In this document: positions 1 through 16,138 of the stretch, piece by piece
Layout: every line of letters starts with the position of its first letter
How positions within the stretch are numbered: the first letter of the stretch is position 1
From: Armatimonas rosea
GTDB taxonomy: Bacteria > Armatimonadota > Armatimonadia > Armatimonadales > Armatimonadaceae
NCBI RefSeq assembly: GCF_014202505.1
Contig: NZ_JACHGW010000002.1
Coordinates: forward strand, 930,001-994,000
Direction: 5' to 3'
DNA length: 64,000 bases
Made by a program: the position numbers and the translations under genes
Notes under the pieces: generated by a model
What the model saw: the letters and a program-made list of their open reading frames with translations, nothing else
What the model was told of the DNA's origin: nothing
Database searches by the model: none

Positions 1-779
1 ACCTCCATGTGGTCGGAGACAAAGCCCAGAGGGACCACGGCGACGCCGGGAACGGCCCCCCCGGCCCCCGCGGAGCGGGGGAGACTCTTGAGGTAGTCGA
101 GGATATCGGGCTCTAGCCAGGGGACCTGGGGCGGGCCGCTGCGGCTCTGGAAGGCCAGGTCCCAGCGGTAGAGGTTGCAGGCGCTGGCGATCAGGCTGGC
201 GGAGTCGCGGAGCTGCACCTCGTAGTCGCAGTTGCGTGCCATGCCCTGGGGGATACTGTGCGCCGTAAAGACCACCCGGGAGCCGTCGGGGAGCTGCGCC
301 AGAGCCTCTTTGACCCGCTCGGCCATCACGGCGACAAACTCGGGGTGGTTGTAGAAGACCCGAAGCTTATCAAAAGTAGGGGCGCCGGGGCCGACCGCCT
401 CACAGGCCTTGGCGATATCCTCGCGGTACTGGCGGCAGCCGGAGTAGGAGCTAAACGCCGAGGTCACAAACACCAGCGCGCGCTCGACCCCATCGGCCTT
501 CATCAGCGAGATCGTGTCGGTAAGAAACGGGTGCCAGTTGCGGTTGCCAAAGTAGATCGGCAGAGGAAAGCCGCTCTCTCTGAGGGCCTCGATCAGGGCG
601 CGGTTCTGGCCGTTGATGGGGCTGACCCCGCCGAAGTGGTGGTAGTGCTCCGCCACTTCCAGCAGGCGCTCGGCGGGGATATTGCGCCCCGCGGTCACGT
701 TTTGCAGAAACGGCAGGACATCGTCGGGGCCTTCTGGGCCGCCAAAGGAGAGCAGGAGCAGGGCATCGTAGTGGTTCAT
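1..779 (-). CDS. hemH: Ferrochelatase (coproporphyrin type), partial at left edge
   Basis: Inserts ferrous iron into the porphyrin ring; with HemQ next door the expected substrate is coproporphyrin III. Reading the minus strand from the ATG at 779 gives 259 residues that run off the left end. Visible are the N-terminal FGGPEGP segment, FGGVSPIN, the catalytic-histidine motif FTAHSIP, and near the edge GFVSDHMEV, which holds the conserved metal-site Glu. Its ATG overlaps the TGA of hemQ (ATGA), so the two are translationally coupled, and it is the last gene seen in the heme operon. The C-terminal ~50 residues lie outside the window. Identification is firm; substrate choice is inferred from context. 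Confidence 0.95.
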
Positions 780-1878
780 AATAGCTTCGTTCCGACCCAG
801 ATCATCTCATTCTCGATCTTGGTCTGGAAGGTCTCCACCGGCTTCTTGACCACGCCGTCGATTGCGGCGCCGGTCCTCAGGTCGAACTTACCGTAGTGCC
901 AGGGACAGACAACAGAACACTCGTCGCTGTTGATAGTTCCCTCACAGAGCGGGCCGCGGGCGTGGCTGCAGCGGTTGTTGATGGCGAGGATCTCGCCCTT
1001 GATGTTGAAGACCCCGACCATCTTGCCCTCCAGAAACACCGTCCGCGCCTGGCCCGGAGCAAGGTCCGCGAGGGGGCAGACCTCCACCCAGCTCTCTCGC
1101 GCCTCGCCGGCAGCCAAGGCCTCGGCGATGGGAGGGCCACCAAGCGTGTCGAGGGCTTCGTCGAGGCGAAGATTGACACAGGTAAAGAGCGGCGTATCTT
1201 GGAGCGTGTAGCGGCTGGACTCGGTCTCGCGCAGCTCTTGCACCAGGTCCAAGAAGTCCGCGGGCTCGTCGGTCTCGAAGGCCAGGATAAACTCGTAGTC
1301 GTCGATCCCGAAGCTGTAGGTGGTGTTGAGGCGAATCGACGGGTACTTTTTCCCCACCTCGATGTGCTCGTCCATCACCCCCTGCCGCGTGTGCTTGGAG
1401 AGCTGGTACCAGTCGCGGGTCTTGATAAACGGGTAGACAAAGACATACTTGGCCTCCGACGGATCGATGACCAGCCGCTCCTCTTCCTCGCTGCTATCGG
1501 CACCGCCCACCCGAATCTCGTAGACCGAGCGCTTGGTCTGGGAGAAGTAGGAGTAGGCGATCTGGAGGTAGCTGCCCATGCGGGTGCGTAGCAGGGCGGT
1601 GGCTAGCTCCTGGAAGACCAGCGGACTCTCGGTGATCTGCCAGAGAAGCAGCTCGCAGTCCGCGCGGGTGCCGACCGTGCTGTAGGGGCGCAGGAGCATG
1701 CGCCGGTTGAAGTTCTGGATGACACTCGAAAGCTCGCGCTTCTGCGCTGCTTGCTCGTCCTCGGGCAGGCGACGCCAGGCCGGGTCGAGCTTGTAGAAGG
1801 CGAAGCGGACATACTGGCGGCGGCTGAGCTGCCGTCCTGCCGGCGGCGCGGCGGGGGTATCGGTGGTGGATCGTGGTC

Positions 1879-1882
<4 letters not shown>
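776..1882 (-). CDS. hemQ: Coproheme decarboxylase fused to a C-terminal Rieske domain
   Basis: The final step of the coproporphyrin-dependent pathway: two oxidative decarboxylations of coproheme to heme b. Residues ~20-235 form the chlorite-dismutase-like fold, with YPFIK (Tyr150, the catalytic position), WYQL, the proximal His173 in MDEH, and the SFGIDDYEF strand. Residues ~265-368 add a Rieske [2Fe-2S] domain with CSH (Cys305, His307) and CPWH (Cys326, His329). Typical HemQ is about 250 residues and lacks this domain, so 368 residues reflects a real fusion in one frame. The start overlaps the hemL stop and the stop overlaps the hemH start (both ATGA). The Rieske part could feed electrons or sense oxidation; this is inference. 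Confidence 0.93.
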
Positions 1883-3174
<1,292 letters not shown>

Positions 3175-3209
3175 GGTGATAGGATACCCGGCTGGCCCCC
3201 CGGTTGGCT

Positions 3210-3336
3210 CGCCCCCGTTGGAGGGGGGCGTCAACGAGCCTGCGGCTGGGAAGGCCTTCGGCCATAGGGATCTCTGATGGCCGAAGGCCTTTGCGGCGGA
3301 ACGCCCGTTGACGCCCCGCTCTAACCGGGGCGGGCT
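3210..3336. repeat. Palindromic hairpin element, family A (copy 1)
   Basis: Between hemY and hemL. The left end is a hairpin with stem CGCCCCC/GGGGGCG and loop GTTGGAG (3210-3230). The right end is a hairpin with stem GCCCCG/CGGGGC and complementary-type loop CTCTAAC (3313-3331). Between them GGCCTTCGGCC and its complement GGCCGAAGGCC pair across a short spacer. The whole block can also fold as one long nested palindrome. It overlaps the last bases of hemY. No T-run follows, so it is not a standard terminator. Confidence 0.8.
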
Positions 3337-4693
3337 ACAGCCGCTCGACCGTCTCCTCCGCTTGGTGGATGCAGTCGGGGATACCGACACCGCGGTAGGC
3401 GCAGCCGGTGAGGTGTAGGCCGGGGGGGAGGGATTTTTCCAGGACAGCGATTCGGTCTAGGTGTCCGGCATCGTACTGGGGGTTGGCGTTGTGCCAGCGG
3501 AAGATGCGGTGAAAGAGCGGCTCGGCGGTGATGCCTAGGATATCTAAAAGCTGCTCTCTTGCCATCGCGAGAATCTCGTCGTCGGTTTTTTCCAGGGTCT
3601 CAGGGGTGCGCGAGCCGCCGAAGAAGACCCGGACGAGTGCCTGGCCCTCGGGGGCGCGCGACGGGAACTTCACCGACGAGATCGTCAGGGCATTGATCGG
3701 GCGCTTCTCCCGCAGGGGGATCACCATGCCAAAGCCGTGTAAGGGGCGCTTGATCTCGTCGGTGCGGAAGCCGAGGGAGAGCGTCCCCGTGCTCACCGCA
3801 CGCATCAGCTCCAGCTGCTCGGCGACCCGTGGTGCGAAGGGCTCGACCAGCGTGGCGGCGACCGAGGCGGGCGTGGTCACGATCACCTGCGCGGCGTCGA
3901 GTGTCGTGCCATCCGAGAGCGTGAGCGTGTAGCCTGTTGAGGTTTGCGTGAGCGCTGTCACCGCCGTATTGAGCTTGAGGGGGCCGGTGAGCTTGCCCAC
4001 AAGCGCGTCGACTAGCTCTTGCGTCCCGCCGGGGAACGACTGGAACATCGAGGGCCGCTTGCCGCCTTTACTGGCCTGTGCCAGCTTGGCTTTCTGCGCG
4101 AGCGTCCCACGGATCAGGCTCCCAAACTCCGTCTCCAGCTCGCGGTAGCGTGGGAAGGTCGCCAGCAGGCTCTGGCGCTCGGACTCGCCGCTGTAGATCC
4201 CCGAGAGCAGGGGCTCCCCGAGGCGCTCGAGAGCTTCTTGCCCGAAGCGGCGGCGCACAAAGCTGCCCACGGTCTCGTCGGCGGGATCGGTGCGCGCAGG
4301 GAGAAGCCAGTCTAGGCCCATGCGGAGCTTGCCGGGCCACGAGAGCAGGGGGCTTTGGAGGAAGGGCCAGAGCTTGGTGGGGACGATCAGCTGCATGCCG
4401 TCGGGGAGGGCGACCGGCTGGCCCTGGTGTAGGATGTAGATCGTGCGGAGCTGGTCGTTGGTGCCCAGGAGCCGCTCCCCAAGACCCAGCTCCCGTGCGA
4501 GCTGCGCCGCCCAGGGCTTGGTTGCCAGAAACGAGTCCGCGCCGCCCTCGACCACAAAACCGTCGATTTTCTCTGTCTGGAGCTTCCCGCCCCAGCGCCC
4601 CGACGACTCAATCAAGGTGTAGTCAAGGCCGCGCTTCTGGGCGAACCACGCCGCGCTCAGCCCGGAGATACCGCCCCCAATAATGGCAATCAT
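3335..4693 (-). CDS. hemY: Protoporphyrinogen/coproporphyrinogen oxidase, HemY type
   Basis: FAD- and oxygen-dependent oxidation of the porphyrinogen ring; in a HemQ-containing pathway the product is coproporphyrin III (CgoX activity). 452 residues. The N-terminal dinucleotide-binding motif GGGISGLSAAW is followed by the flavin contact E-S-S-G-R-W-GGKLQTE and by VEGGADSFLATKPW, a HemY hallmark; the C-terminal end has HLTGCAYRGVGIPDCIHQAEE, the second FAD-contact block. The start overlaps the hemE stop (ATGA). Its stop lies within the adjoining palindromic element. Some databases call this hemG; the sequence is the HemY family. Confidence 0.95.
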   Translation of the reverse strand: MIAIIGGGISGLSAAWFAQKRGLDYTLIESSGRWGGKLQTEKIDGFVVEGGADSFLATKPWAAQLARELGLGERLLGTNDQLRTIYILHQGQPVALPDGMQLIVPTKLWPFLQSPLLSWPGKLRMGLDWLLPARTDPADETVGSFVRRRFGQEALERLGEPLLSGIYSGESERQSLLATFPRYRELETEFGSLIRGTLAQKAKLAQASKGGKRPSMFQSFPGGTQELVDALVGKLTGPLKLNTAVTALTQTSTGYTLTLSDGTTLDAAQVIVTTPASVAATLVEPFAPRVAEQLELMRAVSTGTLSLGFRTDEIKRPLHGFGMVIPLREKRPINALTISSVKFPSRAPEGQALVRVFFGGSRTPETLEKTDDEILAMAREQLLDILGITAEPLFHRIFRWHNANPQYDAGHLDRIAVLEKSLPPGLHLTGCAYRGVGIPDCIHQAEETVERL

Positions 4694-5727
4694 GGTGTTT
4701 GGGTGTACTCATGGACAAACTCCACGAGGCGCTTGACCGTCTCGACCGGCGTGTGCTGCAAGATGCCGTGCCCCAGATTGAAGATGTGCCCTGGTCTGCC
4801 CTTGACACTATCCAGGATCGCCTCCACCTGCGGTTGGAGCGCGTCCCAGTTTGCAAAGAGTGCTACCGGATCGAGGTTCCCTTGCACCGCCACACGGTCG
4901 CCGAGTGTCTCCCACGCCGACGCCAGATCCGTGCGCCAGTCCACCCCGATCACATCGCCGCCGGCCTGGGCCATCTGCGGCAGGATTCCCCCGGTGCCCG
5001 TGCCAAAGTGGATCAAGGGGACGCCCGCCGTGCCCGCAATCTCCAGCGCGAGCTTGCTGTAGGGGAGTACAAACTTCGTGTAGTCCGCCGGGCTCAGCTC
5101 GCCCACCCAGCTATCGAAGAGCTGGAGCGCCTGCGCACCCGCCTCAGCCTGCGCGACTAGGTACTCTCCGGCGAGGGTGGCGAGCTTGGTCATCAGCAGG
5201 TGCCAGGCATCCGGCTGGTTCCACATCAGGGTCTTGACCTCGATCCGGTTCTTGCTCCCCCCGCCCTCGACCGCGTAGCTGGCGAGCGTGAAGGGCGCGC
5301 CGCTAAAGCCGATCAGCGGAATCCCCCGCGGGTCGAGCTGCTTGCGGGTGAGGCGAATCGCCTCCAAGGTGAAGCCCAGCGCTGCACGTGGGTCTGGGAC
5401 GCGCAGCGCTTCGATATCGGCGAGGGTGCGCACGGGGTTGTGGATGATCGGCCCCTCGCCCTTGGCAAACTCCAGGCTCAGGCCCATTCCCTCCAGTGGC
5501 GGGAGGATATCGGCGAAGATAATCGCGGCATCGAGGTCGAAGGCGTTGATCGGCTGCATCGTCACTTCGCACGCCAGCTCGGGGCTCTTGATGAGCTCCA
5601 GGATCGTGTTCTGTGCCCGCAGGGCGCGGTACTCGGGCATGTAGCGCCCTGCTTGGCGCATCAGCCAGACCGGCGTCGCATCGACAGGCTCGCGGCGGCA
5701 AGCGCGTAAAAATCGGCTATTTTGCAT
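4690..5727 (-). CDS. hemE: Uroporphyrinogen decarboxylase
   Basis: Removes four acetate carboxyls from uroporphyrinogen III to give coproporphyrinogen III. 345 residues from the ATG at 5727, matching the usual length; the longer open frame upstream only translates a C-rich hairpin region. The signature RQAGRYMPEYRALR near residue 30 carries the conserved Arg pair, and AAIIFADILPPLEGMG carries the catalytic Asp. The later FGTGTGG and GVDWR segments complete the active site, and LGHGILQHTPVE is the typical C-terminal block. It is coupled to hemY by ATGA overlap. Confidence 0.96.
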   Translation of the reverse strand: MQNSRFLRACRREPVDATPVWLMRQAGRYMPEYRALRAQNTILELIKSPELACEVTMQPINAFDLDAAIIFADILPPLEGMGLSLEFAKGEGPIIHNPVRTLADIEALRVPDPRAALGFTLEAIRLTRKQLDPRGIPLIGFSGAPFTLASYAVEGGGSKNRIEVKTLMWNQPDAWHLLMTKLATLAGEYLVAQAEAGAQALQLFDSWVGELSPADYTKFVLPYSKLALEIAGTAGVPLIHFGTGTGGILPQMAQAGGDVIGVDWRTDLASAWETLGDRVAVQGNLDPVALFANWDALQPQVEAILDSVKGRPGHIFNLGHGILQHTPVETVKRLVEFVHEYTQTP

Positions 5728-5740
5728 AGATAGTCTCTTC

Positions 5741-5820
5741 CCCCCTAACCCCCGCCTAGCGGGGGGACAAGTCGGAATCGGGTTCCTTGTATCCCCCCCG
5801 TTGCACGGGGGATGGGGGGG
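5741..5820. repeat. Two C/G-rich hairpins between hemB and hemE
   Basis: A hairpin CCCCCGC-CTA-GCGGGGG is followed by a second with arms CCCCC/GGGGG around GTTGCAC, then a run of G. The second loop resembles, but does not match, the GTTGGAG loop of family A. Internal to the operon, so probably a processing or attenuating structure rather than a full stop. Confidence 0.55.
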
Positions 5821-5833
5821 AGGTGTCGTTAGT

Positions 5834-6814
5834 TTACCTCTCGGCGAGCCAGCGGACGGCGTCGCGGGCAAAATACGTCAGGATCATGTCGGCTCCGGCG
5901 CGCTTGATGCTCACCAGGCTCTCTAAGGCGCAGCGCTGCAAATCAATCCAGCCGTTCTGGGCGGCGGCGTGGAGCATGGCGTACTCGCCGCTGACTTGGT
6001 AGGCGGCCAGCGGTAGCTCGTAGGCATCGCGCACCTCCCGGATGATGTCCAGATACGCCAGCGCGGGCTTGACCATCAGAATATCCGCGCCTTGTTCCAC
6101 ATCGAGCGCCACTTCCCGTAGCGCCTCCCGACGGTTCGCGGGGTCCATCTGGTACTGGCCGCGGTCGCCGAACTGGGGCGGACTCTCGGCGGCATCGCGG
6201 AAGGGGCCGTAGAAGCCGCTGGCGTACTTGGCGGCGTAGCTCATGGTGACCGTATTGACCAGCCCCGCGCTATCCAGCGCTCCGCGAATCGCCCCGATCA
6301 TGCCGTCCATCATCCCCGACGGCGCGATGATATCCGCCCCCGCCTCGGCGTGGACCACGGATGCCTTGCCGAGCAGCTCCAGGGTCGGGTCGTTGAGCAG
6401 ATACCCCGCCTCGTCCAAGACACCGCAGTGGCCATGATCCGTGTACTCACAGAAGCACATGTCCGAGATCACGAGCAGCTCGGGGCAGGCTTTTTTGAGG
6501 GCGCGAATCGTGGTGGGGATAATCCCCTCCGGGTTCCAGTTCTCGCTCCCGCAGGCGTCCTTGGTCTCGGGAATCCCAAACAAGATCACCGCGGGAATGC
6601 CCTCGTCGAACGCACGGCTCGCCTCCACGACCAGCGTGTCCGGCGACCACTGGCACTGCCCCGGCATCGAGCGGATGGGGATTTGCAGGCCGCTGCCGTG
6701 GCGCACAAAGAGCGGGTAGATAAAGTCCGCCGCATCGAGCGAGGTCTCCTGCACCATGCGGCGCAAGAGCGGCGTGCGCCGCAAGCGGCGCGGTCGAAAG
6801 ATCAAATCATTCAT
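5834..6814 (-). CDS. hemB: Porphobilinogen synthase (5-aminolevulinate dehydratase)
   Basis: Condenses two 5-aminolevulinates to porphobilinogen. 326 residues, full length. The zinc-site cysteines are present in [14 protein letters not shown], so this is a zinc-type enzyme. The two active-site lysines lie in SYAAKYAS and MVKPALAY, and [16 protein letters not shown] is the conserved loop. [16 protein letters not shown] near the C-terminal third is the family signature. Heme operon member between hemD and hemE, with repeat-containing gaps on both sides rather than overlaps. Confidence 0.97.
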
Positions 6815-6845
6815 AACTAATTTTTTCTTGCCCTCATGGAAATCA

Positions 6846-6935
6846 TGGGGCTATGGGGCCTTCGGCCGCCTCCTCGTTCCTCGTCGGTAAAATTTCGCCG
6901 AAGGCGCGGCGGCGGCACGACGCCCCATTGCCCCA
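6846..6935. repeat. Palindromic spacer between hemD and hemB
   Basis: A ~90-base imperfect palindrome. The left arm contains ATGGGGC and GGCCTTCGGCCGCC; the right arm contains GGCGGCGGC and GCCCCAT. It shares the GGCCTTCGGCC hairpin with family A elsewhere in the window. Confidence 0.6.
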
Positions 6936-6938
6936 CGT

Positions 6939-7712
6939 TTATCGTGCGGGAACGGGAACAAAATAATCCCCCAGTGCCGCGATAAGGCCGTCGAGCGTGT
7001 GCGTGGCGGGCATTACGTCCACGGTCAGGCCATGCGCCTCAGCGGCGGCGGCGGTCTGGGGGCCGATACAGGCGAGACAGACTCCGGTGAGGCTGGCGCG
7101 GCTCCCGCCCTCGCTCTCCAGCCGGGCGAGAAAGTTATCGACGGTCGAGGCGCTGGTAAAGGTTACCGCATCCACGCGCCTTTGGGCCAGTAGCGCCGCA
7201 ACATCCGCCCCGCCCGTCCCACGGATTGTTCGGTATGCCTCAACGACAGTCACAATCGCTCCACGCGCTGTGAGCTGCTCTGCGAGTGTGGGCGGGGCAA
7301 TCGCGGAGGCGGGGATGAGCACGCGCTGGCCAGGCAGGATCGGCAGCGCTTTACCTAGCGCTTCGGCGGTGAATGTCTCGGGCAGTAGAATCGCTTTTCG
7401 ACCAAGGTAGGCTGCAGAGGCTTTCGCGGTGGCGGGGCCGACGGCGGCTATAGGAATCTCTTCCACCGCATCTTCCATCTCAGGGAAGAGGGCTGCCATT
7501 GTTTGTACGGTGTTGGCGCTGGTGAGGACGAGCCAATCAAAGCGGGCAAGATCGGCGAGCGCCGCGCGTAGCGGCGCGTCGTCTTCTGGGGGAGCAATCG
7601 CGATACAGGGGTACTCGATCACCTCCGCGCCGTGGGCTTGGAGCAGGGCGGTGAAGCGGGAGTTCTGGTGGGTGGCGCGGGTGTTGACGATGCGCTTGCC
7701 GATTAGGGGCAT
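6939..7712 (-). CDS. hemD: Uroporphyrinogen-III synthase
   Basis: Closes hydroxymethylbilane with inversion of ring D. 257 residues from the ATG at 7712 (MPLIGKRIVNTRATHQN); the upstream extension to 7781 is low-complexity repeat translation. The family is weakly conserved, but the pattern is clear: an N-terminal VNTRA strand, FDWLVLTSANTVQ, IAAVGPATAKA, and the second-domain DAVTFTSASTVDNF and CIGPQTAAAAEAHGL. Its place between hemC and hemB supports the call. Activity depends on fold rather than catalytic residues, so no single residue can be checked. Confidence 0.92.
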   Translation of the reverse strand: MPLIGKRIVNTRATHQNSRFTALLQAHGAEVIEYPCIAIAPPEDDAPLRAALADLARFDWLVLTSANTVQTMAALFPEMEDAVEEIPIAAVGPATAKASAAYLGRKAILLPETFTAEALGKALPILPGQRVLIPASAIAPPTLAEQLTARGAIVTVVEAYRTIRGTGGADVAALLAQRRVDAVTFTSASTVDNFLARLESEGGSRASLTGVCLACIGPQTAAAAEAHGLTVDVMPATHTLDGLIAALGDYFVPVPAR

Positions 7713-7755
7713 GTGGCCATCTCCGTGTCGGCCATCTCCCTGCCGCTGAGACGGC

Positions 7756-7866
7756 TTCCCTCTTCCCCTGATGGCTCGCAAGCTCGCCGGGAAGAGGGAC
7801 TTTCCGGTATGCCCCTCTTCCCAGCGAGGAACGAGCGCACCCAGAGGGTACCCGCGGAAGAGGGGG
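7756..7866. repeat. Paired long hairpins between hemC and hemD
   Basis: Two successive inverted repeats with arms CCCTCTTCCC/GGGAAGAGGG (7756-7798) and CCCCTCTTCC/GGAAGAGGGG (about 7811-7866). Together they form a ~110-base structured spacer inside the heme operon. There is no T-run. It may act in mRNA processing or stability. Confidence 0.6.
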
Positions 7867-7899
7867 AGCGCTCTAAGGCGCGGGGAGATGGCACACTAT

Positions 7900-8796
7900 T
7901 TACCCCAAGAGCTCCGTGGCTCCTTGCGCCTTGGCGTCGTCGGCGAGCTGGGCTCCGAGAGCTTCGGCGTCGGAGGGGGAGGCGGTGCCGGTGACCTCGA
8001 TGCAGCGGGTGCCGTCGAGGGACAGAACCCGGGCAGTGAGGGTGAGCGTGGAGCCCTCTAGGTAGGCGTAGGCGGCGAGAGGGAGCGAGCAGCCACCGCC
8101 GAGCGCGGCGAGGAAGGAGCGCTCGGCGGTGACCGCCTGCGCGGTGGCGGTGTCGTGGAGCGGAGCGAGGGCCGCGATAATCGCGGCATCGTCGCGGCAT
8201 TGCACGGCAATTGCCCCTTGGCCGGGCGCGGGTAGGAGCACATTGAAGGGGAGGACCTCAGTGATGGTAGCGCTGTAGCCCAGGCGCTCCAGGCCGGCGT
8301 GGGCGAGGAGGATGGCATCGTAGGGGCCGCTCGGGTCGAGGGCTTTCTGGATGCGCGTATCAACATTGCCGCGGATATCGAGCAGCTGCAGGTCCGGGCG
8401 GGCGCGCAGGAGCTGGGCGGCGCGGCGGCGGCTACTGGTGCCGATGGTCGCGTGGTGCGGGAGGTCCAGGAGGCTCTTGCCGCTGCGGCTGACGAGCACA
8501 TCCCCGACCGGGGCACGCTTGAGGATCGCCCCAATTGCCAGGCCCGTGGGCTGCTCGGTGGGCAGGTCCTTGAGGCTGTGCACGGCGCACTGGATGCGGT
8601 TCTCGTGGAGCGCGGCCTCCAGCTCGGCGGTGAAGAGGCCCTTGCCGCCGATCAGCGGCAGAGGGGTATCGAGGACGCGGTCGCCCTTGGTCTGGATGAC
8701 CTCGATCTCGCCGCTCCCTTCTGGCAGGAGCGAGAGGACATGGTCGGTCTGCCAGCGGGCGAGCTTGGAGCCACGGGTGCCAAAGCGCAGGCGCAT
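7900..8796 (-). CDS. hemC: Hydroxymethylbilane synthase (porphobilinogen deaminase)
   Basis: Polymerises four porphobilinogens into hydroxymethylbilane. 298 residues. The N-terminal FGTRGSKLARWQ, VHSLKDLPTEQP with the catalytic Asp, IGTSSRRRAAQL and DIRGNVDTRI Arg clusters, and the dipyrromethane-attachment Cys in LGGGCSLPLAAY are all present. The ATG follows the hemA TAG with no gap, implying translational coupling. Full length for the family. Confidence 0.97.
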   Translation of the reverse strand: MRLRFGTRGSKLARWQTDHVLSLLPEGSGEIEVIQTKGDRVLDTPLPLIGGKGLFTAELEAALHENRIQCAVHSLKDLPTEQPTGLAIGAILKRAPVGDVLVSRSGKSLLDLPHHATIGTSSRRRAAQLLRARPDLQLLDIRGNVDTRIQKALDPSGPYDAILLAHAGLERLGYSATITEVLPFNVLLPAPGQGAIAVQCRDDAAIIAALAPLHDTATAQAVTAERSFLAALGGGCSLPLAAYAYLEGSTLTLTARVLSLDGTRCIEVTGTASPSDAEALGAQLADDAKAQGATELLG

Positions 8797-10074
8797 CTAG
8801 TTCTTCTCAGCGAAGGGACAGCGGGCCGCCTCCAGGCCAAAGACATCGCGCACCGTGTCGGCGTAGTTGACCCCGTTGCCCTCGATGGCGTTGGAGCGCA
8901 GGCGCAGGGTGGGCTCGTGCATCAGGCGGTTGACCAGGCTATGGGCCAGGATCTCAATCGCCCGCTGCGTGGCTTCATCGGCGTGGGGCAGCCGGGCAAG
9001 GGCCTTCTCGACCTCGCTCTGCGCCAGGCCCTGCGCCCAGTCCCGTAGGTCCTTGATGACCGGAGTCACCTCGCGGGTCTGGAGCCACTCGGTGAAGCGG
9101 GCGGTCTCTTGGCCGATAATCTGCTCGACGGCCGGGACCGCGGCGCGCCGTAGCTCGAAGTTGGCGTCGATCACTTGCTGGAGGGCGTCGATATCGTGGT
9201 ACGCCACGGACTCCAGGGTCGCGACTGTCTCCTCGATATCTCGGGGGACTGCGATATCCACGAGGGTGAGGGGGCGGCTTTCACGGGCGCGCACGGCGGC
9301 GGCGACCTCGCTGTAGTAGATCACGGTGTGGGGCGCACCGGTCGCACAGATCACCGCATCGGCCCAGGTGAGTGCCTCTTCGAGCTGACACCAGCTCAGG
9401 GCGCGGGCGCTGAGCTTCTGCGCGAGGTCCTCGGCATGGACCAGCGTGCGGTTGATGACGGCCAGCTCGACCGACTCGGTGGCGCGGAGGGTCTGTGCGG
9501 CGAGGACGGCCATCTCCCCGACTCCCACGACCAGCACGCGGCGCGGTGCGGTCTGGAGCACGAGCTGCGCTCCCGCATGGCTCACCGATGTCGTGAAGCG
9601 GCTGATCTCGGTCTCGGTGCGGGCGCGCTTGCCGGCCTGGGTCGCCTGGGCAAAGAGGCGCGAGAGAACCGGCCCGACTGACCCCGCGGTCTGTGCTTCC
9701 TGAAACGCCAGCCCGACCTGGCCGAGAATCTGGTCCTCCCCTAAGATCATCGACTCCAGCCCACACGCGACACGGAGCAGGTGGGTGGTGACGGTCTCGC
9801 CGGTCTTGAGGCTGAGGTGAGGAACGAGCTCGCTCTCAGGCAAGCGGTAGAGCGCACTGAAAGCGGCGACCACGCTGGCATGGTGGACCTGTGGGCGGAG
9901 CACGGCGTAGAGCTCCAGGCGGTTGCAGGTCGAGAGCAGGACGGCCTCGGAAAAAAGCTCGGTGGCCCGTAGCTCCTCCAGGGCGGTGCGCAGGGCGCAC
10001 CCCGAGAGGGCAAGGCGCTCACGCAGGGCGACCGGCGCGGTGTGGTGATTGACTCCTAGCAAAACGACTGACAC
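8797..10074 (-). CDS. hemA: Glutamyl-tRNA reductase
   Basis: First committed step of tetrapyrrole synthesis: NADPH reduction of glutamyl-tRNA to glutamate-1-semialdehyde. 425 residues. The N-terminal domain has LGVNHHTAPVALRE and the nucleophile Cys in LLSTCNRLELYA. The NADPH domain has VLVVGVGEMAVLAAQTL and INRT, then the helical dimerisation tail. The start is GTG at 10074 with AGGAG about ten bases upstream, so this is one of the Shine-Dalgarno-led genes in the window. It is the first gene of the heme operon, hence the likely control point. Confidence 0.97.
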   Translation of the reverse strand: MSVVLLGVNHHTAPVALRERLALSGCALRTALEELRATELFSEAVLLSTCNRLELYAVLRPQVHHASVVAAFSALYRLPESELVPHLSLKTGETVTTHLLRVACGLESMILGEDQILGQVGLAFQEAQTAGSVGPVLSRLFAQATQAGKRARTETEISRFTTSVSHAGAQLVLQTAPRRVLVVGVGEMAVLAAQTLRATESVELAVINRTLVHAEDLAQKLSARALSWCQLEEALTWADAVICATGAPHTVIYYSEVAAAVRARESRPLTLVDIAVPRDIEETVATLESVAYHDIDALQQVIDANFELRRAAVPAVEQIIGQETARFTEWLQTREVTPVIKDLRDWAQGLAQSEVEKALARLPHADEATQRAIEILAHSLVNRLMHEPTLRLRSNAIEGNGVNYADTVRDVFGLEAARCPFAEKN

Positions 10075-10093
10075 GTTCTTGGTTCTCCTGGGT

Positions 10094-10099
10094 AGTATA
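10094..10099 (-). promoter_or_regulatory. Probable hemA operon -10 box
   Basis: Minus-strand TATACT, 19 bases before the GTG of hemA, leaves room for a short leader with the AGGAG ribosome site. The -35 region (GGAACT at 17 bases) is weak, so activation or a GG-extended -10 is likely. Confidence 0.6.
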
Positions 10100-10192
10100 C
10101 CGCTCCTTGCGACAGCAGTTCCCTAGCGTACTTCCCAGAGATGAAGAGCGCATGAAGCTCGCCCAAAGGTTCCCTCGCGCACTCTTGTGGCG

Positions 10193-10198
10193 TAAAAT
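10193..10198 (+). promoter_or_regulatory. Leaderless -10 box for the GDPD gene
   Basis: TAAAAT ends six bases before the ATG at 10205 and no ribosome-binding site is visible, so transcription should begin at or next to the start codon. Confidence 0.65.
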
Positions 10199-10204
10199 AC
10201 CCGC

Positions 10205-10792
10205 ATGACAATCTTTGCCCACCGCGGGGCCTCCGCCGATGCCCCCGAGAACACCCTCGCCGCCTTTTTGCTCGCCGCAGAGCAAGGGGCCGATGGGATC
10301 GAGCTGGACGTGCGCCTGACCGACGATCACCAGCTCTTGGTCCACCACGACCCTATCTCAGGGAGCCGCGCGGACTACCCCCGCCACCCAACCCTCGACG
10401 AGGTGTTTGCAACCGTGGGGGAGAAGTTTGTCTGCATCAATGTGGAGCTGAAAGAGAGCGGCAATGGGCTGGAGCCGCTGGTCTTGGAGTGTATTGCGCG
10501 GCATAAAATCTTGGAGCGTGTGCTGATCTCGTCGTTCTTGCCCGAGGCGCTCAAAAACTGCCCCGGCCTGCCCTGCGCCCGCCTCTTTGCCCGCACGATC
10601 CCCGACGACTGGCCGGAGTGGCCGGTGCTCCACCCGCACTTCGCGCTGGTCACCGACGAGACCATGGCGCTCTGGCGGGAGGCGGGAAAGATTGTCAATG
10701 TCTGGACGGTCAATGACCCCGCGGAGATGAAGCGCCTCGCCGCACTTGGGGTCGATGGGCTCATCACCGACGTGCCCGCCCACTGGAAGTAG
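10205..10792 (+). CDS. Glycerophosphodiester phosphodiesterase
   Basis: Hydrolyses glycerophosphodiesters to glycerol-3-phosphate and an alcohol. 195 residues, at the short end for the family (usually ~230-250). The metal and catalytic signature is intact: FAHRGASADAPENT (His, Arg), DGIELDVRLT (Glu-x-Asp) and LVHHDP (His). Later strands VNVWTVND and GLITDVP complete the TIM barrel. No signal peptide, so cytoplasmic. Transcribed away from hemA from a leaderless promoter. The short middle suggests a minimal substrate loop. Confidence 0.9.
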   Translation: MTIFAHRGASADAPENTLAAFLLAAEQGADGIELDVRLTDDHQLLVHHDPISGSRADYPRHPTLDEVFATVGEKFVCINVELKESGNGLEPLVLECIARHKILERVLISSFLPEALKNCPGLPCARLFARTIPDDWPEWPVLHPHFALVTDETMALWREAGKIVNVWTVNDPAEMKRLAALGVDGLITDVPAHWK

Positions 10793-10880
10793 GCGTCTGC
10801 AGTGGCCTTCGGCCGCAAAGCCCGTGCCGGGCTGCAAAGTTACGCCCCCCTTCGCGAAGCCGGAGGGGGTGCCTGAGTGG
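10793..10880. repeat. Hairpin element, family D (half copy)
   Basis: Directly after the GDPD stop: GGCGTCTGCAGTGGCC, then GGCCTTCGGCC, AAAGCCCG-TGC-CGGGCT and a CGCCCCCCTTCGC block. The order and sequence match the left half of the ~200-base palindrome at 30627-30830; the right half is not obvious here, so this copy looks truncated. The following ~50 bases up to the hemoglobin gene show nothing clear. Confidence 0.65.
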
Positions 10881-10932
10881 TGCGAAGGCGGGGGAGGTAA
10901 TAATGCGGGGCCTGGGAGAGTATCGGTGAACG

Positions 10933-11883
10933 ATGAAAAGTCACTTTAACGAGAGGTCGCTTGCCGGTATCTACGAGGCGGTCGGGGGGATCGAGGCGCT
11001 CCGGCGCATCTCCCAGCGCTTCCACCACAGGGTGGAGCAAGACCCGGTGCTGCGCGGGCTCTTTCCCAAGAACATGGTCGCCTTGGAGGAGCGCCTCGCG
11101 CTCTTTCTCGCGGAGCGGACCGGCGGGCCTGCCGACTACACCGCGACACGTGGCAAGACCAGCCTGCTCTGTCGGCACGCCCACCTCGCCATTGGGACGC
11201 TAGAGGCGGAGCACTGGCTGGAGCACCTGCGCACCTCGCTCGTCGAAGAAGGGGTTCGTGACGATGCTGCAGCGCTGCTTCTCGCGAACCTGACAGAGCT
11301 GGCGGCGACCCTGGCGGACCCGCTGATCTTGCTCTACGAGCTCCCGCTAGACGAGCTGCGTGCGAGGCTCCAAGCCGATCCCGCGCTGGCGCTTGTCAAC
11401 GACCACGGCCGGAATCTGCTCTGCGCCGCCGCGATTGCCTGGGATGTGCCCCGCCTGCGCCTCCTCCTAGAGTTTGGCGCCGATATCGAGACGAAAGACA
11501 CCGGTGGCCACAACGCGCTCTACCGGGTTGCCAATGGCAGTGGCCGCGAAGAAGACGGTCGCGCGGCGCTGGAGCTGCTGATCGCGCACGGGGCGAGGGT
11601 GAATCAAACAACGGGTGTGGGGGGCATGACCCCCCTGCACATGGCCGCCCGCCGCGGAACTGTCGCTCTCGCGGAGGCGCTGCTGGGCGCCGGTGCCACC
11701 CCCGATGCCCGCGATACCAAGGGCGAGACCCCGCTCCGTCGCGCTGTGAACTGTGGCCACGAGGGGATCGTCCGCCTGCTCCTCGCCCACGGTGCGAACC
11801 CGCTGAGCCAGGATCGCCAGGGCCGCACTGTGCTCGACGCTGCCCGCCACGAGCCAATACGCGCCTTGTTGCAAACCCTTTAG
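10933..11883 (+). CDS. Truncated hemoglobin fused to ankyrin repeats
   Basis: Residues ~12-125 match a truncated (2-on-2) globin: IYEAVGGIEALRRISQRFHH, DPVLRGLFP, ERLALFLAERTGGP and the proximal-His region with His82 in CRHAHLAIG. Residues ~155-316 are about four ankyrin repeats (GGHNALYRVANG, GGMTPLHMAARRGT, KGETPLRRAVNCGH, QGRTVLDAARH, with LL-x-HGA turns). The globin could bind oxygen, NO or heme, and the ankyrins would recruit a protein partner. It sits close to the heme operon but is transcribed the other way. No signal peptide. The start at 10933 lacks a clear Shine-Dalgarno sequence. The fusion is seen directly; the function is inference. Confidence 0.85.
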   Translation: MKSHFNERSLAGIYEAVGGIEALRRISQRFHHRVEQDPVLRGLFPKNMVALEERLALFLAERTGGPADYTATRGKTSLLCRHAHLAIGTLEAEHWLEHLRTSLVEEGVRDDAAALLLANLTELAATLADPLILLYELPLDELRARLQADPALALVNDHGRNLLCAAAIAWDVPRLRLLLEFGADIETKDTGGHNALYRVANGSGREEDGRAALELLIAHGARVNQTTGVGGMTPLHMAARRGTVALAEALLGAGATPDARDTKGETPLRRAVNCGHEGIVRLLLAHGANPLSQDRQGRTVLDAARHEPIRALLQTL

Positions 11884-12203
11884 CCCCAGCGCTTTGTCTC
11901 AGCGGCGTGTGCCAAGGCGGCGAGGGTGAGCGGGCGAAAACCTTCTCCGTGCCGTAGCGCGAGCCAGAGCCAGGTGAAGGGGTTGAAGGGAACCTGCGGC
12001 CCGAGGTAGTGCGCACTGCGAAAGGCGCTCATGTCCACCTGAAAGTGCTCCGCAAAGGCATGGATCAGGCGCTCGACCTCCTCGCGTGTCATCCCAAGAT
12101 CCTGCACAAGCCGTGTCTGTGGAGTAAGCGAGATGGCAGTGGTCGTACGGTGTGCCTGTAAAAACGCGATGACCTCTCGCTCTTTTTCGTTTTCGTCGCC
12201 CAT
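11880..12203 (-). CDS. DUF1493-like small acidic protein
   Basis: 107 residues from the ATG at 12203 (MGDENEKER). The pattern TRLVQDLGMTREEVERLIHAFAEHFQVDMSAF resembles the DUF1493 / acyl-carrier-protein-like fold, where DLG replaces the DSL phosphopantetheine site; there is no attachment serine, so it is unlikely to be an active carrier. The C-terminal segment FNPFTWLWLALRHGEGFRPL is typical of the family. The stop overlaps the convergent hemoglobin-ankyrin stop. Its start lies only 22 bases from the divergent fasciclin gene, sharing a palindromic promoter (GGTAAAATACC). Function unknown. Confidence 0.65.
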   Translation of the reverse strand: MGDENEKEREVIAFLQAHRTTTAISLTPQTRLVQDLGMTREEVERLIHAFAEHFQVDMSAFRSAHYLGPQVPFNPFTWLWLALRHGEGFRPLTLAALAHAAETKRWG

Positions 12204-12212
12204 GGTTCTTGG

Positions 12213-12218
12213 TAAAAT
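12213..12218 (+). promoter_or_regulatory. Leaderless -10 box for the fasciclin gene
   Basis: GGTAAAAT is followed by seven bases and ATG (12226). The box reads GGTATTTTACC on the other strand, ten bases from the DUF1493-like start, so it may serve both genes. Confidence 0.65.
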
Positions 12219-12225
12219 ACCAGAC

Positions 12226-12936
12226 ATGGACACCAACTTCCGCTCTCGTCTTCTCCGTGTGCTCCTCGCCAGCGCGATCATCGGTAGTGTGGCAGGCTGG
12301 CTCTATCCTCATCGCTCTAACGCACAGGCAGCGTGTTTTCCGTTAGGCGCGGACAGCTACATAGATCAGGCGGGGTGTCTTGATCTAAGCCAGGCGGAGA
12401 AAAACCAGCGGCTTGCAGGTGCAGCGCTGGCCGCTTATGGGGTCTACCGAGCGAGTACAGGAGGTATTCATCTCCCCGCTCACACCGGCTCTGTACGAAC
12501 GGGTAGCGCGTCGCTGTGGGGGCTGACCCAGAGCAAGCCCGACGAGTTTGGGGCGCTGATCAAGATCCTACGCAACACCGGCGAGACCGAGACCTACCAG
12601 AGCAGTGGCCCCTACACGGTCTTCTGGCCCACCGATGCCGCGCTCACCAAGGCACTCGGGGCCGAGCGTGTTGCGGCGCTCCAAAGTCCAGCCGGCCAGC
12701 AAGACGCTCGCCACTTTATCGCCAGCCTGACGGTCTCGGGGAGCTATAGCCTCCAGCGCCTGCGGGCACTCGCCACTGAGGGGAAGACTCTCACGACCCT
12801 GACCGGCGACGAGGTAGTCCTCAAGCTCGAGGGAAACACGCTCACCGCCAACGGGGTCGCCCTGCTCCAGAGCGAGTACCCTGCTCAGAATGGCTTTGTG
12901 CTGGTCACGGAGGGGATTGTTGCCCGTGAGCCGTAG
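12226..12936 (+). CDS. Secreted fasciclin (FAS1) domain protein
   Basis: 236 residues. An N-terminal signal sequence (RLLRVLLASAIIGSVAGW, ending near NAQA) directs export. The FAS1 domain occupies residues ~100-235: the H1-like FGALIKILRNTGETETY, YTVFWPTDAAL, DARHFIASLTVSGSY and the H2-like GFVLVTEGIV. FAS1 proteins mediate weak adhesion at the cell surface. A Cys pair near the mature N-terminus may form a disulfide. The 3' end overlaps the convergent MarR gene by 32 bases. Leaderless promoter at 12213. Confidence 0.85.
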   Translation: MDTNFRSRLLRVLLASAIIGSVAGWLYPHRSNAQAACFPLGADSYIDQAGCLDLSQAEKNQRLAGAALAAYGVYRASTGGIHLPAHTGSVRTGSASLWGLTQSKPDEFGALIKILRNTGETETYQSSGPYTVFWPTDAALTKALGAERVAALQSPAGQQDARHFIASLTVSGSYSLQRLRALATEGKTLTTLTGDEVVLKLEGNTLTANGVALLQSEYPAQNGFVLVTEGIVAREP

Positions 12937-13387
12937 CATCGTCCCGGAGCCGCTTCTCCAGAGCCTTGAGGTGCGCCTCTAGCTGCTGGAGCTCTTGTGC
13001 GGAAAAGCTGCTGAGTGTCGTGTCCGCGAGAGCGGTCGCCTCCGGGCCGAGGCTACGCAAGAGATTCCCACTCTTCTCGGTCAACGTGAGCTTGTAGCTC
13101 CGCCGGTTCTCGCCGGGGAGCTTTGCCAGCAGCCCCTCGCCCAAGAGCCGGTTGATCATCACAGAGACAGTCGCACGCTCCAGAAAGAGATACTCGGCCA
13201 GAGCACTCGATGTGGCTCCACTCGTGCCGCCACAGTTCCAGACCGCGATCAGGAGCCGAAACTGTGCCTGGGTGATCCCGAAGTGGGCAAAGTGCTGGTC
13301 AAAGCCCACCGCCATACGGGTTCCGACGCGCATAAGGGCAAGGCACACGCGCGAGGCGAGCTCGGGATCACTAGGCTTCTCTGGCAT
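12905..13387 (-). CDS. MarR-family transcriptional regulator
   Basis: 160 residues. The winged helix lies at ~40-110: ITQAQFRLLIAVW, SSALAEYLFLERATVSVMINRL as the recognition helix, and LLAKLPGENRRSYKLTLTEKS as the wing. It is the second gene after the duplicated-barrel protein at 13413-14285, 25 bases downstream on the same strand, so it is likely autoregulated through the palindrome at 14287-14315. A weak -10 (TACAGT) eight bases before the ATG could give a separate leaderless transcript. The ligand cannot be told from sequence. Confidence 0.92.
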   Translation of the reverse strand: MPEKPSDPELASRVCLALMRVGTRMAVGFDQHFAHFGITQAQFRLLIAVWNCGGTSGATSSALAEYLFLERATVSVMINRLLGEGLLAKLPGENRRSYKLTLTEKSGNLLRSLGPEATALADTTLSSFSAQELQQLEAHLKALEKRLRDDATAHGQQSPP

Positions 13388-13412
13388 ATCGCCCTACTGT
13401 ACCAAAAAGTGG

Positions 13413-14285
13413 CTACTTCTTGCCGGGGCCGAAGCCCCCGCCGCGTGCAAAACCGCCCGGCGCGGTGGTGTAGAGCTCCACCGAGATCTGCGAGAGCGCC
13501 ATTCCCAGCGTGGGATCGACCTCTTTGGCGTTGGTTATCGTCGCGATCACGACAATGGGCTTCGTGTCCGCGCTCACCTCGGCGAGTGGGGGACGGGTGG
13601 GGGGAGCCATCTGTGCCATCATCTCTCCGTGTGCTGCACCGTTGTACCAGGCGAGGGTTGCTTTCTTATCCGCAAACCAGGCGACAATCACCAGCTTGCC
13701 GCTCTCACACTGCATAGCGGCGACCCCGAGGCAACCGGGGCTTTTCTGGAGGTCGGCAATCATCGTATTGCCTCGTGGAAGGGGCTTGGGAGCGGCGTCG
13801 CCCTGTGTCGGCTTACTCGGCTTGGCGGTGCTGCGCGGCACCGAGATCAGGCCCGGCACCTTCACGGTCTCGGGGGCGAAGCGTCCGCCATAGGCAAACC
13901 CACCCGTCACCGGAGTCATGCGCTCGAGGGCAAGCTGCGCAAGGCCCATCGGCTCTTGAGGGTTTTTCGAGGGCGTAAACGAGGCGATCACCAGCACAGG
14001 GCCCTTGACCGGCGTTGGCTTCACGACAGCCGTCTCGGGGATCTTGGCCAGCTGGCGCATGCCCTGACAGATCGGGCCCTGGATAAAGGCATCGGCGCTG
14101 GCGGCGCTCTCAAACCAGCCAAAGAGCGCGAGCCGTCCGCCTTGCACTTTCGCGTTTTCCAGGCCCAGGCAGCCTGGCGCACTCTTCATCGCGGAGACAA
14201 AAAAGTCGAGTCCTTGGGCCTTTGCGGAGGGCACTGTGACAGCTGCAACGGCAGCGAGAGCGAAGATTGTTGTGGTTGCTTTCAT
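13413..14285 (-). CDS. Exported protein with two ABM-like dimeric-barrel repeats
   Basis: 290 residues from the ATG at 14285; the signal peptide MKATTTIFALAAVAAVTVPS ends at AKA. The mature protein contains a duplicated ~75-residue unit: MKSAPGCLGLENAKVQGGRLALFGWF and LQKSPGCLGVAAMQCESGKLVIVAWF, each followed by a helical segment and a VLVIASFT/IVVIATIT strand. The pattern resembles antibiotic-biosynthesis-monooxygenase (ABM)-type ferredoxin-like barrels, here as a tandem pair that would make an intramolecular dimer. Operon with the MarR gene. It may bind or oxidise a small aromatic compound outside the membrane, but no catalytic residue is certain. The open frame upstream to 14522 is not used. 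Confidence 0.7.
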   Translation of the reverse strand: MKATTTIFALAAVAAVTVPSAKAQGLDFFVSAMKSAPGCLGLENAKVQGGRLALFGWFESAASADAFIQGPICQGMRQLAKIPETAVVKPTPVKGPVLVIASFTPSKNPQEPMGLAQLALERMTPVTGGFAYGGRFAPETVKVPGLISVPRSTAKPSKPTQGDAAPKPLPRGNTMIADLQKSPGCLGVAAMQCESGKLVIVAWFADKKATLAWYNGAAHGEMMAQMAPPTRPPLAEVSADTKPIVVIATITNAKEVDPTLGMALSQISVELYTTAPGGFARGGGFGPGKK

Positions 14286-14286
14286 G

Positions 14287-14321
14287 GTTAGTATTCTAAT
14301 TGTTAGAATGCTAACTGTCAA
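14287..14321 (-). promoter_or_regulatory. MarR-type operator embedded in a strong leaderless promoter
   Basis: Minus strand: TTGACA (14316-14321), 17-base spacer, TAGAAT (14293-14298), seven bases, ATG. A 13+3+13 palindrome (14287-14315; arms GTTAGTATTCTAA and TTAGAATGCTAAC, 12 of 13 pairs) covers the whole spacer and the -10 box. Binding of a MarR dimer would block polymerase directly, and the MarR gene is the second gene of this transcript. Confidence 0.85.
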
Positions 14322-14373
14322 GAGTAAAAAATCACAGCGCCCTGAAAGAAGCAAAGAAGCGCTGTGAGTTTTT

Positions 14374-15153
14374 CTAGAGCTTGGCGCTGAGGTACTCAAA
14401 CGAGGAGCGCAGGCAGTCGAAGGGGTCGCGGCGGCAGGTGTCTTGCTCGACCGCGTACCAGTCCACGCCGCTCTCCTCGCAGGCGGGCAGGATCGTGTCC
14501 CAGGGGAGATTGCCCTCGCCAATCGCCGCGATCACGGGGCCGTCTTTGGGGACAACTTCCTTGTCTTTCAGGTGGATCACGGGGACACGGCCCTTGCAGC
14601 GGCGGATCAGCGCGGCGGGATCGACCCCCGCGTGCCAGACCCAGTAGAGGTCGGCCTCCAAGTAGTAGTCTGGGCCGCCTTCGTCGATCAGGATATCCCA
14701 GAGAGTCTGCGGGCTCTCGGGGGTGACCCGCACGAACTCATGGCTGTGGTTGTGGTGCCCGAAGCGAACCCCCCCGGCCTTGAGAGCCGCGATCACCGGC
14801 GCGGAGTCGGCCAAAAAGCGCCGGTAGCCGTCGGCGTGGTCCGCCCCGTAGCTCTGGGGAATCCCCCCGATTGCCACGTAGTCGCAGCCCAGGGTGTGGT
14901 GCAGGTCGAGCTCCTCGCTCGTGTTCTGCGCGAGCCGGTCCCACGAGCGGTGGGTCGCGATGCACTTGAGGCCATTGTCATCGAGCATCGTGCGGAGCGT
15001 GGCGGCATCGAACTCCGTTTCAAAGGCCTTGACCGCCGAGACCTGCACGGCACGGTAGCCGATCTCGGAGATACGTTTGAGCGACGATGCGACATCTGCC
15101 GTCGTGGTCAGGTGGTCGCGGAGTGTGTAAAGCTGAACAGCGAGCTTGGTCAT
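14374..15153 (-). CDS. Sugar phosphate isomerase/epimerase-like TIM barrel
   Basis: 259 residues, AP-endonuclease-2-like (xylose-isomerase-like) TIM barrel: LAVQLYTLRDHL, IGYRAVQVSA, FGHHNHSHEF with paired histidines, YYLEADLYWVWHAG and VIHLKDKE, whose Glu, Asp, His and Glu positions form the usual metal site. No signal peptide. Such proteins isomerise or epimerise sugars or inositol derivatives; the exact substrate is not readable. Divergent from the ROK gene, with the two -10 boxes 13 bases apart, which hints at shared carbohydrate-linked control. Confidence 0.85.
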   Translation of the reverse strand: MTKLAVQLYTLRDHLTTTADVASSLKRISEIGYRAVQVSAVKAFETEFDAATLRTMLDDNGLKCIATHRSWDRLAQNTSEELDLHHTLGCDYVAIGGIPQSYGADHADGYRRFLADSAPVIAALKAGGVRFGHHNHSHEFVRVTPESPQTLWDILIDEGGPDYYLEADLYWVWHAGVDPAALIRRCKGRVPVIHLKDKEVVPKDGPVIAAIGEGNLPWDTILPACEESGVDWYAVEQDTCRRDPFDCLRSSFEYLSAKL

Positions 15154-15159
15154 GGGGCT

Positions 15160-15165
15160 ATTTTA
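15160..15165 (-). promoter_or_regulatory. Leaderless -10 box for the TIM-barrel gene
   Basis: Minus-strand GGTAAAAT then six bases and ATG (15153). It lies back-to-back with the ROK promoter. Confidence 0.7.
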
Positions 15166-15178
15166 CCAAGTAGGGAGA

Positions 15179-15184
15179 TACAAT
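15179..15184 (+). promoter_or_regulatory. Leaderless -10 box for the ROK gene
   Basis: TACAAT then nine bases and GTG (15194). The two divergent -10 boxes (15165 and 15179) are so close that polymerases cannot occupy both. Confidence 0.55.
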
Positions 15185-15193
15185 ACGAGCGGC

Positions 15194-16138
15194 GTGATTT
15201 TAGGGATCGATCTTGGGGGAACAAAGTCGGCGGCACTGGTGCTGCACGAAGACGGAGTCGTGGTACGTCGGGTTGCGGCTCCCACCCCTGCACACGCCGG
15301 TGCTGAGGCGCTCTTTGCCTTTCTCGTCGGCCTTGCCCAGCAAGTGCGCGGCCCTGAGACACTCACCGGTGTCGGGGTCTCGGCGGGCGCTCCGGCCGAT
15401 GCGCAAAACGGCCTTGTCTTTGCTGCGCCCAACCTTCCGGGGTGGGGGCCAGAGGGCTTCCCACTCGCCGCGCGCCTCGCCGATGTCCTCCATCTCCCGG
15501 TTCAGCTTGAAAACGATGCCGATGCCACGGCTCTGGCGGAGTGGCGCTTTGGGGCGGGGCAGGGCACGAAGAACATGGCTTTCCTGACAGTTGGGACGGG
15601 CATTGGCTCGGGGCTCATCCTTAACGGCGCGCTCCACCGGGGGCGGCGTGGTGCGGGCGGCGAGGTCGGGCATATCGCTGTGGTCACCGGCCCCGAGGCG
15701 CGCTCCTGCTCCTGTGGGCTGCGCGGCTGCCTGGAGGCCTACGCTAGTGGGCCGTCGGTGACCCGGATCGCCCAAGAGCGCGGTTGGCAGGGCGAGGCAA
15801 GCGGCCGCGCCGTGGTCGAGGCCGCCCGCGCGGGCGATCCCATCTGCCGTGGGGCACTTGCCCAGGCCGCCGAGCACCTCGGGGCGGGGCTGGCGACCCT
15901 GGCGATGCTCCTTGATCTGGAGCGGATTGTCCTAGGCACCCTCGCGGTCCATGCCGCCGACCTGCTCCTAGAGCCGATTCAGCAGAGCCTGCGCGCCCGT
16001 GCCTGGCCGCGCCTCACCGAGGGGCTTGAGGTCGTCCCCGCCGCGCTCGGCGATAGAGCCCAAGACCTCGCCGCCCTCTGCGCTTTTGCCCCCTCCGCCC
16101 CAGCCCCCTCCGCCCCCACAAATGGGGGAACTCTATGA
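15194..16138 (+). CDS. ROK-family sugar kinase
   Basis: 314 residues from a GTG start directly followed by ILGIDLGGTKSAALVL, the ATP phosphate-binding motif. ENDADATALAEWRFG holds the catalytic Asp, VGTGIGSGLI the second phosphate loop, and GHIAV with CSCGLRGCLEAYASG the ROK zinc site (His plus three Cys). No helix-turn-helix domain at the N-terminus, so it is a kinase (glucokinase-like) rather than a repressor. The C-terminus ends in a Pro/Ala/Ser tail. Its ATGA overlap with the phosphatase gene makes an unusual kinase-phosphatase operon. Confidence 0.9.
   Translation: MILGIDLGGTKSAALVLHEDGVVVRRVAAPTPAHAGAEALFAFLVGLAQQVRGPETLTGVGVSAGAPADAQNGLVFAAPNLPGWGPEGFPLAARLADVLHLPVQLENDADATALAEWRFGAGQGTKNMAFLTVGTGIGSGLILNGALHRGRRGAGGEVGHIAVVTGPEARSCSCGLRGCLEAYASGPSVTRIAQERGWQGEASGRAVVEAARAGDPICRGALAQAAEHLGAGLATLAMLLDLERIVLGTLAVHAADLLLEPIQQSLRARAWPRLTEGLEVVPAALGDRAQDLAALCAFAPSAPAPSAPTNGGTL

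Follow-up and report, generated by a model that had tools for sequence, protein, structure and literature searches.

Truncated globins fused to ankyrin repeats in three bacterial phyla: candidate heme proteins with a conserved docking groove

Introduction

Globin-coupled sensors carry a 3/3 globin N-terminal to an output domain, which is either enzymatic or serves chemotaxis. Truncated globins are widespread, with roles that are mostly unsettled. One of them, in Streptomyces avermitilis, is reportedly joined to a small enzyme fold, giving a chimera of a truncated hemoglobin and an antibiotic monooxygenase.

The group II truncated hemoglobins (TrHbO) are represented in the PDB by entries such as 5d1v, 2bmm, 1ngk and the Bacillus subtilis protein YjbI (1ux8). 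According to passages of one paper, residues at B10, CD1, E7, E11 and G8 jointly set ligand stability, and the same passages mention neither ankyrin nor fused domains (PMC4720485). Distal residues such as E10 are noted elsewhere to be able to ligate the iron in some truncated globins (PMC11904497). YjbI is described as having a protein hydroperoxide peroxidase-like activity that requires Tyr63, and as needing Tyr25, at B10, for resistance to HClO (PMC9536834). A tie between bacterial ankyrin repeats and heme protein function is likewise seen in the catalase-associated proteins AnkB and Cj1386 but these, according to a review, are separate proteins encoded beside catalase, and have no globin (PMC10294975).

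The protein considered here is encoded in a stretch of 64,000 nucleotides of the Armatimonas rosea genome (hereafter the window) and resembles several of these systems in part. In common with the group II truncated hemoglobins it has the globin fold, the F8 His, Trp at G8 and, in the clade to which it belongs, the GGPxxY motif, but it differs from them in its ankyrin repeats, in having His for Tyr at B10 and in a CRHAH motif that replaces their M-R-H stretch. As in globin-coupled sensors, with which an earlier note on this DNA compared it, the globin is N-terminal to the output domain. That comparison needs correcting, since the window globin is of the 2/2 truncated kind (PF01152), not the 3/3 kind, and is followed by a non-enzymatic docking domain, the only C-terminal families found by Pfam being ankyrin ones. 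With the S. avermitilis chimera it shares the combination of a truncated globin and an extra domain, although that domain is ankyrin rather than a small enzyme fold. The fusion is therefore neither a globin-coupled sensor, given its 2/2 globin and non-enzymatic output, nor a plain group II globin, given its B10 His. We found no description of a globin-ankyrin fusion in the open-licence literature; the architecture may already figure in automatically compiled domain databases.

Results and discussion

Gene and domain architecture

The fusion gene lies on the forward strand at window positions 10933-11883, where an ORF of 316 residues plus stop, exact in coordinates and frame, has full-length homologues. 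Two Pfam domains are recognised in the protein, each well over its cut-off: Bac_globin (PF01152, E = 5.4e-21) at residues 13-126, window 10969-11310 (+), and a C-terminal Ank_2 (E = 1.7e-29). The ankyrin domain, counting repeats and caps, covers about residues 129-316, window 11317-11880 (+). PF01152 is a 2/2 family and no other globin family matched at E ≤ 1. The earlier description of a globin followed by ankyrin repeats in one frame is thus borne out in ORF, frame and both domains.

In a model of the full-length protein (pLDDT 87, pTM 0.68), residues from about 126 to 316 take up an ankyrin fold, with Z of about 24-26; the pTM leaves the mutual placement of the two domains unsure. The last globin helix of the model runs from 110 to 127 and the next helix from 130 to 136, so that the junction, of around two residues, is short and rigid. 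Both domains evolve under purifying selection, with dN/dS values of 0.10-0.28 in eight of 12 domain comparisons, the remaining four being saturated. A promoter and terminator scan of positions 10000-12400 produced nothing beyond chance.

Distribution of the fusion

A survey of architectures combining globin and ankyrin domains, as the earlier note had proposed, shows the fusion to recur among soil bacteria, in Armatimonadota, Acidobacteriota and one member of the Chloroflexota. Both domains are encoded in one frame in 22 of 291 Armatimonadota genomes, although one instance, in G087, is cut by the contig end. In a second collection, scanned with one genome per species, fusions account for 26 of the 74 matched loci: 23 from Acidobacteriota, two from Armatimonadota and one from Chloroflexota (Dictyobacter kobayashii). 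Two of the 26 (L058 and L068) come from genomes already in the Armatimonadota count, or are near copies. This recurrence, in 22 genomes and again in 26 loci, argues that the fusion is no accident.

Within the order of one Acidobacteriota genome (G292), matches that run across both domains occur in 21 of 150 genomes. In contrast, even draws of other genomes gave fusions in 0 of 395 for Acidobacteriota, with four candidates scored per genome, and 0 of 300 for Chloroflexota, with six. With so few candidates scored, and set against the 21 of 150 and the 23 Acidobacteriota loci, these zeros should not be taken as true absences. In the window's own family the fusion is confined, among the 12 genomes reported, to the window genome, and its closest fusion relatives belong to other families (G108, 70% identical in the globin). 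So scattered an occurrence, and closest relatives that belong to other families, suggest that the fusion has moved by horizontal transfer.

Two further candidates, from Verrucomicrobiota (L088) and Ozemobacteraceae (L091), were rejected as fusions, having ankyrin repeats without a globin. At a Ktedonobacter racemifer locus (L086:8013-8417) just the ankyrin half is present, with no globin frame before it, as a result of either decay of the gene or an error in the assembly. Three other ORFs of about 250-270 residues (L087:2303-3115, L089:2039-2830 and L155:2-751) have a globin in their C-terminal half; those at L087 and L155 match no Pfam family besides globin.

Two clades of fused globins

A tree was built from 55 fused globin domains, 21 unfused ones and five solved references over 129 columns. 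All 55 fused domains fall on one side of a single branch (SH-aLRT 94). One unfused sequence (L169) is placed among them; its contig ends inside the gene. Two clades are evident. Clade A (support 99) contains ten sequences of 315-372 residues, including that of the window; clade B (support 98) contains 45, of 305-503 residues as judged by ORF, with a longer linker that includes extra helical sequence. In one clade B member (L084) the frame is lost in the ankyrin part. With so few columns the finer forks are weak, as are 35 of the 78 inner branches.

The globin domain and its heme site

Searched by sequence against the PDB, the globin finds its best matches among the group II truncated hemoglobins, namely 5d1v (E = 4e-20), 2bmm (about 1e-18) and 1ngk (about 3e-16). 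Since ankyrins, natural and designed, took up the Foldseek list for the full-length model, the globin was also modelled alone (pLDDT 83). This model superposes on 5d1v with Z 17.4 and an rmsd of 2.1 over 121 residues, but group I truncated globin structures tie with 5d1v to within 1 Z unit, so that the fold alone cannot separate the groups, whereas the ranking by sequence can.

The alignment places His82 at F8, Trp95 at G8, Phe44 at CD1 and His31 at B10, the G8 position being fixed by two mutants in the alignments, 2qrw (WG8F) and 4uzv (a triple mutant). The earlier note's proximal His82 and GG signature both stand, His82 aligning with the F8 His and both GG pairs being present. His82, lying within the CRHAH motif (11170-11184, +), and Trp95 (11215-11217, +) are each conserved in 55 of 55 fused globin domains. 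A Tyr at B10 is a trait of group II, seen in its solved members, and here the window has His31 (11023-11025, +); for this reason we call the globin group II-like rather than a plain member of the group. Judged on its residues, the window globin is a group II-like truncated globin of heme-binding type. The same genome encodes, elsewhere on contig C1, a standalone group II-type globin of 148 residues with Tyr at B10 (L154:9886-10332), so that the fusion is more than just the housekeeping globin of this genome.

The heme pocket differs between the clades. At B10, clade A has His in all ten members, while clade B has Tyr in 43 of 45, with one His and one Phe. Around F8 the clade A sequence is CRHAH, against ESHxR in clade B, and the linkers differ too. 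Cys80 and His84 of CRHAH are present in 10 of 10 clade A members and absent from the corresponding columns of clade B, save for one other residue type at each. Equally, the Tyr of GGPxxY, Tyr69 in the window protein (11137-11139, +), is found in 10 of 10 clade A sequences but in just four of 45 in clade B.

Tyr69 aligns, by offset in the alignment, with Tyr63 of YjbI, the residue on which the peroxidase-like activity depends (PMC9536834). The fusion might be viewed as a docked heme enzyme, a globin with peroxidase or NO dioxygenase activity that its ankyrin groove places on a client protein, for instance to rid the client of hydroperoxides as YjbI does in B. subtilis. The retention of this Tyr throughout clade A, and of Trp G8 in all 55 domains, would be in keeping with such a role. 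Against this, 41 of the 45 clade B members, and so most of the fusions, have no equivalent of YjbI Tyr63, and the position of YjbI Tyr25 is occupied by His31 in the window and by His throughout clade A; among the neighbour families listed (see below) there is no conserved gene for a redox partner. We consider a docked enzyme somewhat doubtful, while noting that it comes close behind the sensor reading developed below.

The ankyrin groove

In the ankyrin domain, the most striking conservation is in two consecutive repeats. Arg240-Arg241 (11650-11655, +) occupy groove positions 13-14 of the third repeat that is clear to Pfam and are kept in 55 and 49 of the 55 fusions, respectively. In the following repeat, the sequence RRAVNC (residues 269-274; 11737-11754, +) retains Arg270 in 55, Asn273 in 50 and Cys274 in 51 of 55, Asn273-Cys274 again being positions 13-14. 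Other ankyrin residues kept across both clades are His193 and Tyr197 (53 of 55 each) and Asn201 (49 of 55). For comparison we took 119 repeats from 76 other ankyrin proteins encoded at the same loci, a set picked by pattern and hence biased to well-formed repeats. Positions 13-14 vary in this background, where RR is found in four of the 119 repeats and NC in one. We take these positions to be those that are randomised for target binding in designed ankyrin libraries. A regular expression for the groove matched 25 of 55 fusions and one of 76 background proteins; as it proved too strict, per-column counts were used instead.

The near-invariance of Arg240, Arg241, Arg270, Asn273 and Cys274, a pattern read from aligned sequences, suggests that the groove has one conserved partner. 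That partner might be the protein's own globin, the ankyrin domain acting as an intramolecular cap or merely stabilising the protein, with nothing bound from outside. Groove conservation by itself would look alike whether the groove served an outside partner or the fused globin, and the full-length model gives no contact information. A groove that served its own globin would nevertheless be expected to change along with the globin surface, and the surfaces of the two clades diverge, in CRHAH against ESHxR and in their linkers, while the groove stays as it is. This counts against the cap, which we regard as unlikely.

We favour, tentatively and at a little short of even chances, a soluble heme protein with an ankyrin groove for one conserved partner, acting most probably as a switch that responds to a gas or to redox state through its heme. 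The fusion would be a soluble, probably cytoplasmic, group II-like truncated globin that binds heme; its groove would hold the partner, and that hold would alter when the globin bound a ligand or was oxidised. The distal pocket differs by clade and the ankyrin residues do not, which amounts to a changing input and a constant output, as expected of a sensor family. A docked enzyme would account equally well for a groove that is constant beside a pocket that diverges. Any rigid coupling of globin to ankyrin domain, as the short junction in the window protein might imply, is not general, given the longer linker and extra helical sequence of clade B.

A more specific version of the switch can be put forward as a speculation that we think rather less probable than its outline. 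The fusions would then form a new class of heme sensor, in which a 2/2 globin has an ankyrin groove as its output and takes up or releases a single partner according to the ligand or redox state of the heme. In clade A, the B10 His, which faces the F8 His, could itself ligate the heme iron, and Cys80 and His84, near the proximal ligand, could form a second redox element. The pocket would have been retuned between the clades, the partner remaining the same across three phyla.

At least 55 fused domains carry a pointer to their own function in the form of a near-invariant docking groove, and the identity of the partner would tell what the fused globin senses or acts on. With His or Tyr at B10 and an unchanged output, the two clades form a natural experiment in heme-pocket chemistry. 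If the sensor reading is true, a non-enzymatic docking output joins the known kinds of globin sensor.

Genomic context

In the window genome the fusion does, literally, stand beside a heme operon, as the earlier note had it. The operon, hemA-C-D-B-E-Y-L-Q(Rieske)-H by Pfam, is divergent from the fusion and fills window positions 1-10074 on the reverse strand, with the start of hemA 859 bp from the fusion on the opposite strand. Between them, on the strand of the fusion, is a gene of the GDPD family (PF03009; 10205-10792, +). Downstream of the fusion are a DUF1493 gene, a gene for a fasciclin-domain protein and a MarR gene.

This adjacency is the one observation in favour of the fusion switching heme synthesis through HemA or the adjoining operon, and it is not repeated in relatives. 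A tblastn search (E ≤ 1e-6) with the nine heme proteins of the window matched nothing in the 597 kb of 43 other fusion loci, whose flanks have a median length of 8 kb, 60 of 86 being at least 5 kb. Of the other genomes with a fusion, 15 of 18 gave a hemA match, the exceptions being G113, G125 and G087, and in all 15 hemA is distant from the fusion or on another contig; in the four where both are on the same contig (G014, G108, G303 and G1100) over 1.5 Mb separates them. A genome of the same genus (G001) keeps hemA, 88% identical, without a fusion beside it. No fusion was found in that genome, and the 16.7 kb upstream of its hemA contain no match to the fusion, to the GDPD, DUF1493, fasciclin or MarR genes or to two further window genes. 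Five other genomes of the family likewise have hemA without the fusion, in stretches of 6-18 kb. The link to the heme operon was accordingly rejected, on the searches with hemA and hemC and with all nine genes, on the positions of hemA in 19 fusion genomes and on synteny within the family; as far as tested (43 loci and 15 of 15 genomes with hemA), relatives of the fusion lie far from heme genes, an outcome that the earlier note had itself named as counting against the idea. Of the proposal of a heme- or gas-dependent protein-binding switch for heme synthesis, what survives is a globin of heme-binding type joined to a protein-binding ankyrin domain, with the heme-anchoring residues kept in 55 of 55 and those of the groove nearly invariant, while its tie to heme synthesis and HemA is not supported. 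We view control of heme synthesis as highly improbable.

The remaining neighbours are no more constant. Clustering of neighbour ORFs, defined by a greedy longest-ORF method that admits some spurious ones, revealed no family in more than five of 44 loci, and those that recur do so at varying distance and strand. Similarly, Pfam assignments for two sets of neighbours, of 36 and of 67 proteins and together 103 out of 151 listed, include no family in more than five proteins. In the fusion loci examined, no conserved neighbour gene thus points to a pathway.

These neighbours also bear on whether the fusion could carry heme or help to assemble heme proteins, its ankyrin domain binding an apo-heme-protein such as catalase and its globin passing heme to that protein or shielding the site. 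There is a precedent of a kind, in that ankyrin proteins of other bacteria are reported to interact with catalases and promote them, one through heme trafficking (PMC10294975). Around the fusions, though, a peroxidase family appears once among the 103 neighbour proteins of 43 loci, in the families listed, and catalase is absent from the commonest ones listed (25 of 54 and 25 of 100). The complete retention of the F8 His and Trp G8, moreover, suggests stable heme binding over hand-over, and we judge a carrier role improbable.

Two minor features of the heme region may be recorded. Comparison of window positions 10205-16138 with the same-genus locus (L210, from G001) reveals a heme operon conserved in the genus, with an entirely different block right upstream of hemA. 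Within the window's operon, a single ORF at 779-1882 (-) combines a domain of chlorite-dismutase/HemQ type (residues 47-236) with a Rieske [2Fe-2S] domain (residues 264-352).
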